Positions 3,706 through 6,624 of a DNA stretch of 12,422 nt are shown in pieces. Origin of the DNA: an uncultured Thermoplasmata archaeon (GTDB lineage Archaea; Thermoplasmatota; Thermoplasmata; Methanomassiliicoccales; Methanomethylophilaceae); NCBI GenBank assembly GCA_946545675.1, contig CAMNNR010000024.1:1-12422 (forward strand), given 5' to 3'. Position 1 is the first letter of the stretch, and each line of letters begins with the position of its first letter. The notes under the pieces were generated by a model. That model ran no database searches, had not been told where the DNA came from, and was given only the letters and a program-made list of their open reading frames with translations. Both the position numbers and the translations under genes were made by a program.

Positions 3706-4560
3706 TCACTCCATGACGTTCTGTTTCTCAAGGTAACCGAGGATGGTCTTCCTGAGCTCGGTGAACTTGGGATCGGTACGGTCACGGGGCCTGTTGCCGG
3801 GCACATCCACGATCTTATAGATGGTGGACGGTCTCTTCGACAGGACCACGACGCGGTCGGAGAGGTACAGTGCCTCATCAACTGAGTGGGTGACGAATAT
3901 GATCGTTCTGGCACTGTGTTCTACGATCTTGACCAGCATCTCCTGCATGATGTTCCTGGTCTGAGCATCGAGGGCACCGAAAGGCTCATCCATCAGGATG
4001 ACCGCAGGGTGCATCACCATCGCACGGGCGATGCCCACGCGCTGCTTCATTCCTCCGGAGAGCTCATGGATGCGGGAGTCTGCGAACTTCTCGAGACCGA
4101 CCGCTTTGATGTACTTGAGGGCCCTAGCGCGGCGCTCCTCCTTGGGGACGCCAGCCACTTCCATTCCGAACTCGACATTCTTCAGTACTGTCCTCCAGGG
4201 GAAGAGGGCGAAATCCTGGAACACCATTCCACGATCTGAACCCGGAGAGGTACACTCTTTGTTGCCGATGGTTATCTTGCCGCTGGTCGGCTGTAAAAGT
4301 CCAGCGATGGAACGCAGAATGGTGGTCTTACCACATCCCGAAGGTCCTACGATGGAGATGAGTTCCCCTTTTCCTACCTGAAGTGTAAAATCCTCGACAG
4401 CTACTGTTTCTGCGTTATCTGTCTTGTACACCACACGAAGGTGTTCGATGTTCATGATAGGTTCCCCTTCTGCGATATCCTTGAACAACTCATCCGTACG
4501 ATCCAGGCGAACACGGTCCTTTGCCTTGTATCTCTCCCCTTCGACTTTGATCTCTGACAT
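3706..4560 (-). CDS. ABC importer ATPase, nitrate/sulfonate/taurine (SsuB/TauB) family
   Basis: This 284-residue protein is the cytoplasmic ATPase powering the importer encoded by the two preceding genes. All ABC motifs are canonical: Walker A GPSGCGKTT (72-80), Q-loop Gln115 in VFQDFALFPW, signature LSGGM (167-171), Walker B LMDEP with Asp191-Glu192, and switch His225 in FVTHSVDEA. The FALFPWRTV and DEALYLSDRV segments are typical of the SsuB/TauB/NrtD branch. The ATG at 4560 overlaps the permease stop by one base (TGATG), and a GGGAG motif lies 10 nt upstream. With this start there is an unusual charged extension of about 35 residues before the usual ATPase beginning; an internal ATG at 4455 (MNIEHLRVV) is an alternative start. 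The family assignment is firm, the substrate is not. Confidence 0.94.
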   Translation of the reverse strand: MSEIKVEGERYKAKDRVRLDRTDELFKDIAEGEPIMNIEHLRVVYKTDNAETVAVEDFTLQVGKGELISIVGPSGCGKTTILRSIAGLLQPTSGKITIGNKECTSPGSDRGMVFQDFALFPWRTVLKNVEFGMEVAGVPKEERRARALKYIKAVGLEKFADSRIHELSGGMKQRVGIARAMVMHPAVILMDEPFGALDAQTRNIMQEMLVKIVEHSARTIIFVTHSVDEALYLSDRVVVLSKRPSTIYKIVDVPGNRPRDRTDPKFTELRKTILGYLEKQNVME

Positions 4561-5378
4561 CAGGCATCAACTCCCATTCTCTTGCTAACAAACTTGTGGA
4601 TATATTCCGCTAATCCGGTGGTCATGATACCCAACACTGCGATGATTACGATGGCAGAGTAAGCTCCTGGCCAGAAACCTGCGGTTGCCTGTTCTGCAAG
4701 ATAGAATCCTATTCCGCTAAGTTGTGGAGCATACAGTTCTGCCGCGACAATACACATCCAACCGATTCCCAAACCGATTTTAATACCATTCATCAGGAAA
4801 GGTATTGAACTGGGGATAATCACCTTAACAAAAATCTGAAGCTGACTGGCACCCATGGTCTTCGCGGCATCGATCAGGTTATGCTCTATCTTCTGCACTC
4901 CGAAGATCATGTTGGTGAGAAGAGGGAAGAAAATACCAATGAACACTACCAATACAGGACCCAAGGTGTAATTGATGGCGAGGATGAAGATAGGCGCCCA
5001 TGCGATAGGGGCGATAGGTCTCATAACCTCTATCACGGGTTGGGCGAATTCCCTTATCGGTTTCCAGTATCCTATAATTAGCCCCAGAGGTACAGCGACC
5101 ACAAGGGCAAGAAGGAATCCTTTGAAGAATGTGCTCAAACTTGAACCGATGTAATCCCATATCGACTTACCCGTGATAGGGTCGCCATGATTATACAACT
5201 CTACGAGGGCATCCCAGGTCTCTGCAGGAGTAGGGATTGCCACTGAACCTGCAACGAGTGCCACATCCCACCAAGCGAATACAAAGCAAACAAGTGATGT
5301 GACTGTTATTATTCCCATCCTCAACAGACGATGATATCTGTTGTGAGGGTCATAAGTCCAGCCAAATACTGTAGTCAT
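4560..5378 (-). CDS. ABC importer permease, nitrate/sulfonate/taurine (SsuC/TauC) family
   Basis: This is a 272-residue integral membrane permease of the binding-protein-dependent transport family. Hydrophobic segments lie near residues 22-38, 84-104, 122-136, 141-156, 201-216 and 239-256, giving about six helices. The cytoplasmic EAA loop that docks the ATPase is visible at 169-191 (IDAAKTMGAS followed by IIPSSIP). The sequence MRPIAPIAWAPIFI matches the conserved RPIPPlAW-type stretch of SsuC/TauC permeases. The ATG at 5378 is supported by GAGG 8 nt upstream; this motif overlaps the TGA stop of the binding-protein gene, leaving a 10-nt gap and probable coupling. It should form a homodimer in the membrane that receives substrate from the upstream binding protein. 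Confidence 0.94.
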   Translation of the reverse strand: MTTVFGWTYDPHNRYHRLLRMGIITVTSLVCFVFAWWDVALVAGSVAIPTPAETWDALVELYNHGDPITGKSIWDYIGSSLSTFFKGFLLALVVAVPLGLIIGYWKPIREFAQPVIEVMRPIAPIAWAPIFILAINYTLGPVLVVFIGIFFPLLTNMIFGVQKIEHNLIDAAKTMGASQLQIFVKVIIPSSIPFLMNGIKIGLGIGWMCIVAAELYAPQLSGIGFYLAEQATAGFWPGAYSAIVIIAVLGIMTTGLAEYIHKFVSKRMGVDA

Positions 5379-5388
5379 CTGATGTACC

Positions 5389-6624
5389 TCAAGCGTCGAC
5401 GAGTTTACTGTTGATGCTGGTAATCGTTATCGGAGGTGCACCCATGAATCCGAAATTAGCCTCTCCATTCTGCAGGGAAGTGGCAACTCCGGCACCGTTC
5501 GCGGCGGGGCTCATTGTAATTACTATACCGTAAGCATCGAAGTATCCTTTCTCTATTCCATAACCAAGTGCCAGAGATGTGTGGATGTCACCGGATATGT
5601 ATGCTATGGAGATCGAAGTCTTGCTGTACCCTGCTGCACTCGGCTCTCCGAAATTGATTGCCTGCAGGAGATATCCGTCATCAACGAATGCCTGTGCAAA
5701 CCTGTGAGTGCTGCTGAAACCAAGGTTCTTCATGGATACCTTAAGGACTCCGCCGAGAGTGTAGTATGTATCTACCAGATTCTCCACCGTCGTTTGAAGA
5801 CCGCTGAGAGGGGAAGATCCTGTGGTGTATCCCGCATCCGCATAGGTATAGGTCACAATGCCGAGTGCGGATTCGATAACCGCGGTATCAGTTATTCCGG
5901 TCTGGGTCTTAGCGACAGAGACTAATTTCGTATAGTCCTCTGAACTATGATCCGCGAGTGCCTGGTTAATATCCTTGACAGTCTTAATATAAGCTGCTAG
6001 GAAGCGGACGGTCACATCAGAGTTATTGGTAATGAAATCGTGTGAAGCCCCAATAACACAACAGGCATGCCCGGGTTCGAAGTCAGCAGTTAGCATCATC
6101 TTGTTACAACCAGATGCAATCAGACTACTGTACTGGGGTTCCCAGATGATTCCGCCGACCAATCCAGGAATAGAACCGATCGAGGACTCGAAAGCAGCTT
6201 TGTTGGTAATTGATGGAAGATAATAGACTGTTCCAGAATCGAGCGTTTCTTCAGCGCTGTAAGGTTTGAAATTGAGATGCAGCGAGTTCTGGACGATGGT
6301 TTGGAGTTGCATATGCTGGATACTGGTTGTTCCGGGGGTTCCGAATATCTTTCCACCCCAAGCGGAAGCATGATACTGCACGTTACCATCTCCATCCAAT
6401 ACTGGTTTATCATTGCCCACATCGTATTCAATATATGTCGAGGCATTTTCAGTGCTTTTCAGATAAACGCCGGATCCTTCGGTGTTGACTCTGCCAATAA
6501 GGCGTAACTGATTATCCTCTTCGGTATTATTGTAAAAAAGGATAAGCATTGACGAGGCGAGAAGGAAACCCACGACTACGCAAGCCGTGAGGACCACTTT
6601 TTTGTCTATGAACGCTCCAGACAT
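5389..6624 (-). CDS. Membrane-anchored, circularly permuted substrate-binding protein (NMT1/SsuA-like)
   Basis: This 411-residue protein is the extracellular substrate-binding component of the importer. A single hydrophobic segment at about 9-30 forms an uncleaved membrane anchor or signal; no convincing lipobox follows it. The binding-domain motifs are recognisable but out of order. The chain begins with LRLIGRVNTEGSG (40-52), then GTPGTTSIQH (95-104), WEP (161-163) and PGHACCVIGAS (184-194), and continues to FVDDGYLLQA (313-322), the usual C-terminal end of this family. Only then comes the normal N-terminal part: ISIAYISGDIH (338-348), a GIEKGYFDAYGI segment (356-367), LQNGEANFGFMGAPP (384-398) and the terminal SINSKLVDA. 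The end at 411 would connect naturally to residue 38. The frame is continuous, so this looks like a true circular permutation. A TATA box 27 nt upstream and no Shine-Dalgarno suggest a leaderless start. Family confidence is high; permutation is inferred from motif order. Confidence 0.9.
   Translation of the reverse strand: MSGAFIDKKVVLTACVVVGFLLASSMLILFYNNTEEDNQLRLIGRVNTEGSGVYLKSTENASTYIEYDVGNDKPVLDGDGNVQYHASAWGGKIFGTPGTTSIQHMQLQTIVQNSLHLNFKPYSAEETLDSGTVYYLPSITNKAAFESSIGSIPGLVGGIIWEPQYSSLIASGCNKMMLTADFEPGHACCVIGASHDFITNNSDVTVRFLAAYIKTVKDINQALADHSSEDYTKLVSVAKTQTGITDTAVIESALGIVTYTYADAGYTTGSSPLSGLQTTVENLVDTYYTLGGVLKVSMKNLGFSSTHRFAQAFVDDGYLLQAINFGEPSAAGYSKTSISIAYISGDIHTSLALGYGIEKGYFDAYGIVITMSPAANGAGVATSLQNGEANFGFMGAPPITITSINSKLVDA

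Follow-up and report, generated by a model that had tools for sequence, protein, structure and literature searches.

Can a substrate-binding protein begin at a new place in its chain, with its former ends joined, and still serve as the receptor of an importer, and by what route would a family arrive at such an arrangement? The question is raised by a gene of an uncultured, methane-producing Thermoplasmata archaeon of the family Methanomethylophilaceae (assembly GCA_946545675.1, contig CAMNNR010000024.1), analysed here in a window of 12,422 nt. A first-pass annotation had proposed that the conserved blocks of an NMT1/SsuA-type binding protein stand in rotated order in its 411-residue product. 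The observation was confirmed: the chain order is rotated. From its operon and modelled fold, the protein is very probably a membrane-tethered receptor of an ATP-binding cassette (ABC) importer with one permease and one ATPase, of the SsuA/TauA/CmpA kind, in which the two-lobed fold is complete and the chain orders would have arisen via duplication and loss of ends. The swapped order, the confident predicted fold, the conserved operon, the unpermuted homologues and the differing orders at equivalent loci are the observed part of this reading.

Chain order and predicted fold of the window protein

Six segments were cut from the alignment of window-type proteins, with the canonical order A, B1, B2a, B2b, C1, C2. 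Chain orders are named T0 (canonical, A-B1-B2-C1-C2), T1 (the window, B1-B2-C1-C2-A), T2 (starting inside B2), T3 (starting at B2a) and T4 (cut inside B1). The gene and its parts are as follows.

5389..6624, minus strand: substrate-binding protein, circularly permuted and membrane-anchored, 411 aa, order T1
6532..6603, minus strand: hydrophobic N-terminal anchor helix, residues 8-31; one helix in the model
5629..6516, minus strand: segments B1-B2-C1-C2, residues 37-332, normally the second through last parts of the chain; matched to CmpA 138-414 and SsuA 95-331
5620..5658, minus strand: linker, residues 323-335, joining what are the two termini of the canonical protein; flanked in the model by helix 317-323 and strand 336-343
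5392..5628, minus strand: segment A, residues 333-411, N-terminal in the normal chain and C-terminal here; starts of NMT1_2 and NMT1, strand-helix order in the model
6058..6069, minus strand: HACC (HxCC), residues 186-189, from the sequence

All motifs on which the proposal of a rotation was built were found in the 411-residue open reading frame (ORF): IGRVNTEGSG (residues 43-52), GTPGTTSIQH (95-104) and FVDDGYLLQA (313-322), followed in the C-terminal part by ISIAYISGDIH (338-348), EKGYFDAYGI (358-367), MGAPP (394-398) and SINSKLVDA (403-411). The profile matches bore out the swapped order. Residues 335-397 fell on positions 5-65 of Pfam NMT1_2 (24.7 bits against a cut-off of 24.7, hence marginal) and residues 355-400 on positions 9-54 of Pfam NMT1 (21.7 bits, cut-off 20.5, also marginal); therefore, the start of the profile sits at the end of the protein. 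Positions 155-214 of TIGR01728 (SsuA_fam) were matched by residues 159-217 at 18.2 bits, under the cut-off of 163.5. The native protein gave no collinear match to NMT1_2 or NMT1; rotated in silico to the canonical order, it gave a single collinear match to NMT1_2 (residues 3-263 on positions 5-239, 31.1 bits). Three rotations were scored in silico. The only one that breaks the NMT1_2 stretch reached 28.5 bits over positions 5-100; another, intended as a further control, keeps that stretch whole and scores 31.4 bits, so that it is no control.

The AlphaFold2 model of the window protein, with a predicted local distance difference test score (pLDDT) of 94.3 and a predicted template modelling score (pTM) of 0.87, has the two-lobed fold of binding proteins. 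It matched CmpA and SsuA solely from beyond their first ~70-80 residues, and the predicted model of an unpermuted homologue matched both end to end. A structure prediction had been proposed with the annotation, and its outcome, a confident model that aligns with solved relatives from after block A, agrees with the rotation. By sequence, the native protein had no useful match to solved structures. The canonical protein P0093 starts and stops at the site of the window protein's linker. In the modelled fold, the chain would begin in the loop that follows the third strand-helix unit of lobe 1, with the normally leading block supplied by the C terminus; the ligand would be bound in the cleft and handed to the permease. 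The source genome (70.6% complete) held a single copy by protein search, and a Pfam NMT1_2 family search of the same genome returned no match, the window protein itself included.

Chain orders among relatives

Both permuted and unpermuted homologues exist, as the annotation had suggested looking for, and relative to the latter the window protein holds the same segments in rotated order, as a natural circular permutant does. The permutation is thus real, but the window order is not singular, being one of four non-canonical orders. The 99 proteins from a protein search (query included, none left out) comprised 88 T1, three T0 (one of them a fragment) and two T2 proteins; the remaining six were fragments, one fusion and one gapped copy. 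One search for relatives used the best 120 of 585 matches, and a contig search with the single window protein yielded one distant bacterial match (L002), which was set aside. Whole-genome searches found matches in 137 of the 147 genomes of the order Methanomassiliicoccales and in 63 of 389 genomes of the phylum, seven of these 63 lying outside that order. Relatives came under source names such as Methanomassiliicoccales, Methanomethylophilaceae, Methanomassiliicoccaceae, Thermoplasmata and similar. It was the loci from the genome searches that revealed the T3 order.

All six segments were present in 357 records, of which 352 were exact rotations of one cyclic order (T1 168, T3 138, T0 37, T2 9) and five were tandems; no order other than rotations or tandem repeats occurred among the 357. 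Records overlap between collections, with 333 of the 352 distinct by their last 250 residues, and T4 stands outside the count. A protein search with the T3 protein of locus L126 returned 66 proteins, including 16 T4 and 17 canonical ones. In the T4 proteins, the N terminus is lipobox-like and segment C2 falls below threshold; the two with organism names came from Methanofastidiosia and Theionarchaea. Four of the 17 canonical proteins were named, from Hydrothermarchaeota, Baldrarchaeia, Heimdallarchaeota and Thorarchaeota.

Orders were typed in 128 genomes, made up of those fetched among the 137 matching genomes of the order and some from outside it. In the window's family (f1), 72 genomes had T1 only, five T2 only, two T1 and T2, three a T1-T1 tandem, one a tandem plus T1, and one T0. 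Outside this family, 39 genomes had T3, one a T3-T3 tandem and four T0. The two genomes with T1 and T2 (G079 and G090) hold both receptor operons, so that a single cell can make use of two orders.

That the protein is an ordinary collinear one, or its order the product of faulty assembly, has next to no probability. The former was discarded on the swapped profile matches and the unpermuted homologues. An assembly artefact is excluded because non-canonical orders occur in single-contig genomes listed as 98-99% complete (G031, G034, G035, G037, G071, G072, G075 and G077).

We typed 138 ORFs for features that accompany the orders, leaving out loci that repeat the same place (L010, L031, L032, L113-L120), L002 and L068, remote outgroup loci, and the incomplete genes L107 and L144. 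A hydrophobic N-terminal stretch (19-mer) preceded the body in 137 of the 138, and 122 had a permease and an ATPase gene on the same strand within 2.6 kb. Both anchor and operon therefore stay while the body rotates behind the anchor. Judging from strand and helix order and general knowledge of the fold, the tether would hang from lobe 1 in the orders T0 and T1, and from lobe 2 in T2 and T3. HxCC was kept across all orders (127/138) and in all 33 of the more distant T4 and T0 proteins. It lies in the region where the CCCFC motif of yeast Thi5 is presumably found, and might touch ligand or metal.

History of the orders and the proposed route

A change of order could be followed at single loci. 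The T0 locus L045 (genome G093, 61% complete) and the T2 locus L041 (G090) aligned from ~690 bases upstream through the anchor (81% identity) and again downstream (79%). Between these flanks, the body is rotated, with T0 positions 109-751 on T2 positions 574-1215 (71%) and 754-1170 on 112-528 (73%). The former T2 ends join in L045 as RVIEESPDYVSLGLTND, a loop that has the same length as its uncut counterpart in L148, a T1 relative. The L045 group has two more canonical members, P0092 and P0093 (85% identical), which either lie on other contigs or are the same gene as found in other assemblies. Within the genus of the window, G040 (locus L043) has a T2 protein among the window's neighbours (ABC exporter, ATPase, permease, binding protein and pyrophosphatase) in the same arrangement; in G034 (L044), the same neighbours are present and the arrangement differs.

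Trees were built from rows hand-picked to be well spread and to include all typed T0 and T2 loci: 56 of 122 rows for the permease plus ATPase, and 61 and 68 (rooted) rows for the body. A first tree had held 310 rows after the removal of duplicates and one short row, and the T2 groups submitted to approximately unbiased (AU) tests were named after that tree had been inspected. On the permease plus ATPase tree, from which the binding protein is excluded, there were at least seven order changes, compared with a mean of 23.1 after shuffling. The T2 loci L043 and L044 were sister to six T1 loci (100/99), and the T2 loci L038-L042 formed a separate clade that included the canonical L045 beside L041 (100/97 within 100/96). 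A single origin of T2 was rejected (p-AU 7e-56), as was a clade of L038-L042 without L045 (p-AU 3e-4). The body tree had six changes and the same two T2 groups, and rejected both a single T2 origin (p 3e-35) and a group joining L045 to the remaining canonical proteins of Methanomassiliicoccales (p 4e-5).

The agreement between body and permease/ATPase trees on both T2 groups bears on the possibility that horizontal replacement of the binding-protein gene, and not rotation in place, spread the orders. The presence of both T1 and T2 in G079 and G090 would suit such replacement. The trees argue against it, as do the collinear flanks and anchor of L045 and L041, a collinearity that leaves room for transfer of the whole operon; overall, we consider replacement improbable.

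The body tree was rooted with four canonical bacterial-type proteins, two of them named Paenibacillus, each with block A near its N terminus; they replaced an earlier, weak rooting with the remote proteins L129-L134. The rooted tree had eight changes among five orders. T0 stood outside, followed by T3 of Methanomassiliicoccales (87/87); T1 of family f1 lay beside the T3 protein L056 (100/98), and T2 fell inside T1 twice. From the position next to L056, the window's T1 most likely descended from T3 and not straight from the canonical order. The orders would thus have followed one another from T0 to T3, then to the window's T1 and, on two or more occasions, to T2, with one probable return to T0.

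Tandem forms point to how the body could have been rotated. The T1 body was doubled within one ORF in four genomes (L033-L036; 752-757 aa, with 66-82% DNA identity between halves); in the two genomes tested, both halves were each other's nearest relatives on the body tree. The T3 body was doubled in one genome (L037:3297-5426, 709 aa), where HPCC and GTPGPGSIQH are both missing from copy 1. A tandem intermediate is the state predicted by permutation by duplication (PMC3320104). Under this route, the body would be duplicated in frame behind the anchor, after which copy 1 would lose its start and copy 2 its end, leaving a rotated body behind an unchanged anchor; the cycle would be repeated along the family. 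The process might act as a ratchet, in which it is useful for one tether to carry two receptors, and decay at the outside of the pair yields a single rotated receptor. The duplication, fusion and truncation envisaged in the first-pass annotation gain support from these tandem copies; a direct origin of T1 from the canonical order does not hold on the rooted body tree, where it comes from T3.

The tandem forms also bear on a different view of the fold, in which block A fills in the lobe of an adjacent molecule in a domain-swapped oligomer. Chain ends near the membrane and tandem chains would permit such sharing of blocks between neighbours. The single chain is nevertheless predicted as one compact fold (pLDDT 94.3, pTM 0.87), and in L037 the lost motifs both belong to copy 1 taken as a T3 unit, which fits copies that fold separately. 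We regard a domain swap as very improbable.

Rotation could instead have come about by fission and fusion, or by precise cutting and pasting of the body behind the anchor. The rejoined ends are exact, with the L045 loop as long as the uncut L148 loop, and a half-truncated duplicate, a form at which no search was aimed, was not found among the typed ORFs. On the other side, tandem duplicates in frame occur in two of the orders, the fold alone may fix the length of the loop, and no separate half-genes came to notice among the matches, though no search aimed at half-genes was made. Fission or cut-and-paste is unlikely in our view, if worth keeping in mind. Since no half-truncated form was found, permutation by duplication is the likely route, and no more than that.

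Taken as a whole, it is possible, and we would stop just short of calling it probable, that the family records a natural, repeating and reversible rotation within one archaeal order, from T0 through T3, T1 and T2 to T0, with the anchor unmoved, the operon the same and a duplication ratchet as the driver. Besides the missing half-truncated duplicate, several results weigh against our interpretation. Rotation in silico raised the Pfam score only from 24.7 to 31.1 bits, a small gain because the family is remote, and the rotated window protein had no solved relative by sequence search. The fold evidence for the window protein consists of predicted models compared in chain order. The return to T0 is strong on the permease plus ATPase (100/97) and weak on the body, where L045 falls inside T2 at 98/25, or 94/42 in the rooted tree. 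T3 of other Thermoplasmatota was placed elsewhere in the rooted tree (88/85), and therefore T3 may have two origins. Finally, the T0 proteins L046-L048 of the taxonomic order may be retained ancestors and not returns (p-AU 0.29 for the three as one clade).

Known systems and the importer genes

With NMT1/SsuA/TauA/NrtA/CmpA proteins (PF13379, PF09084, TIGR01728), the window protein has in common the fold, the conserved blocks and the operon with permease and ATPase; it differs from them in its rotated chain, broken profile order and score below the TIGR01728 cut-off. GlnPQ (6h30, in the Foldseek list) carries two binding domains per chain, like the 709-757-aa forms, and belongs to another binding-protein class. 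We know of no permutation of its tandem domains.

Single permutations of binding proteins are already known; serial rotation in one family is new. Tp0684 (MglB-2) of Treponema pallidum, of 'Type Ic', is described as tethered and permuted and as still binding glucose (PMC4990184). The first three strands of one lobe have moved to its C terminus, a cut comparable to that of T1; by that description, it is set apart by a Type I sugar-binding fold, an unrelated family and the one order described. Glycine betaine-binding proteins such as OpuAC are described as permutants of one another (PMC2395249), in a distant family where permutation links remote proteins and not neighbouring species. DNA methyltransferases and saposin/swaposin resemble the window family in having tandem intermediates and several orders per family (PMC3320104). 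The window family differs in that its orders shift from one related species to another, at equivalent loci and with the anchor staying put, and in one probable return to the canonical order. Among the literature matches listed, from a search outside which most subscription papers lay, there was no description of a permutation of the SsuA family or of a Methanomassiliicoccales receptor.

Natural circular permutation has mostly been viewed as a single completed event between remote proteins. In this family, five chain starts, two tandem states and repeated changes among relatives with the same partner genes open the route, reversibility and tolerance of permutation to direct study, and since the protein was rotated several times, one chain can be compared across five starting points. 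Whether it matters to a binding protein which lobe bears the membrane tether, a question posed for Tp0684 (PMC4990184), is raised again. Profile searches split permuted receptors into weak partial matches, and such receptors are therefore easily missed or misnamed in methanogens.

Downstream of the binding-protein gene, on the same strand, lie the partner genes.

4560..5378, minus strand: ABC importer permease, 272 aa; PF00528, 63.5 bits; best NCBIfam models SaoP and TauC, under cut-off
3706..4560, minus strand: ABC importer ATPase, 284 aa; PF00005, 122.8 bits; best NCBIfam models SaoA and TauB-type, under cut-off

The binding protein, one permease and one ATPase thus form one operon of the SsuABC/TauABC type (window positions 3706-6624). 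By operon and modelled fold, the protein is the receptor of a putative importer of the sulfonate/taurine/nitrate/bicarbonate kind. The label 'SsuABC-like' given at first pass therefore suits the kind of importer and not membership in SsuA_fam, where the window protein reached 18.2 of the required 163.5 bits and the canonical relative L048 144.4. Among NCBIfam models, the best scores were 123.1 bits for the permease (SaoP, cut-off 295) and 249.1 bits for the ATPase (SaoA, cut-off 360); for SaoX (NF040735, cut-off 300), the window protein had no listed match and the canonical L046 and L048 scored 69.6 and 60.5 bits. An assignment to Sao, a name that we take to denote organometal, was dropped, as all scores lay far under cut-off; among the papers listed on Sao, none was judged relevant. 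Rfam, where a riboswitch or other RNA was sought as a clue to the substrate, gave no match at gathering score in 12 sources.

The new C terminus of T1 has served for fusion. Seven T1 relatives of 501-523 aa (P0079, P0083, P0084, P0088, P0091, P0094 and P0097) carry an extra domain behind block A, listed in precomputed Pfam matches as PF13620 and in some also PF02369. In P0071, a T1 C-terminal part is joined to a Clp N-terminal-type domain (PF02861), possibly on a chimeric contig.
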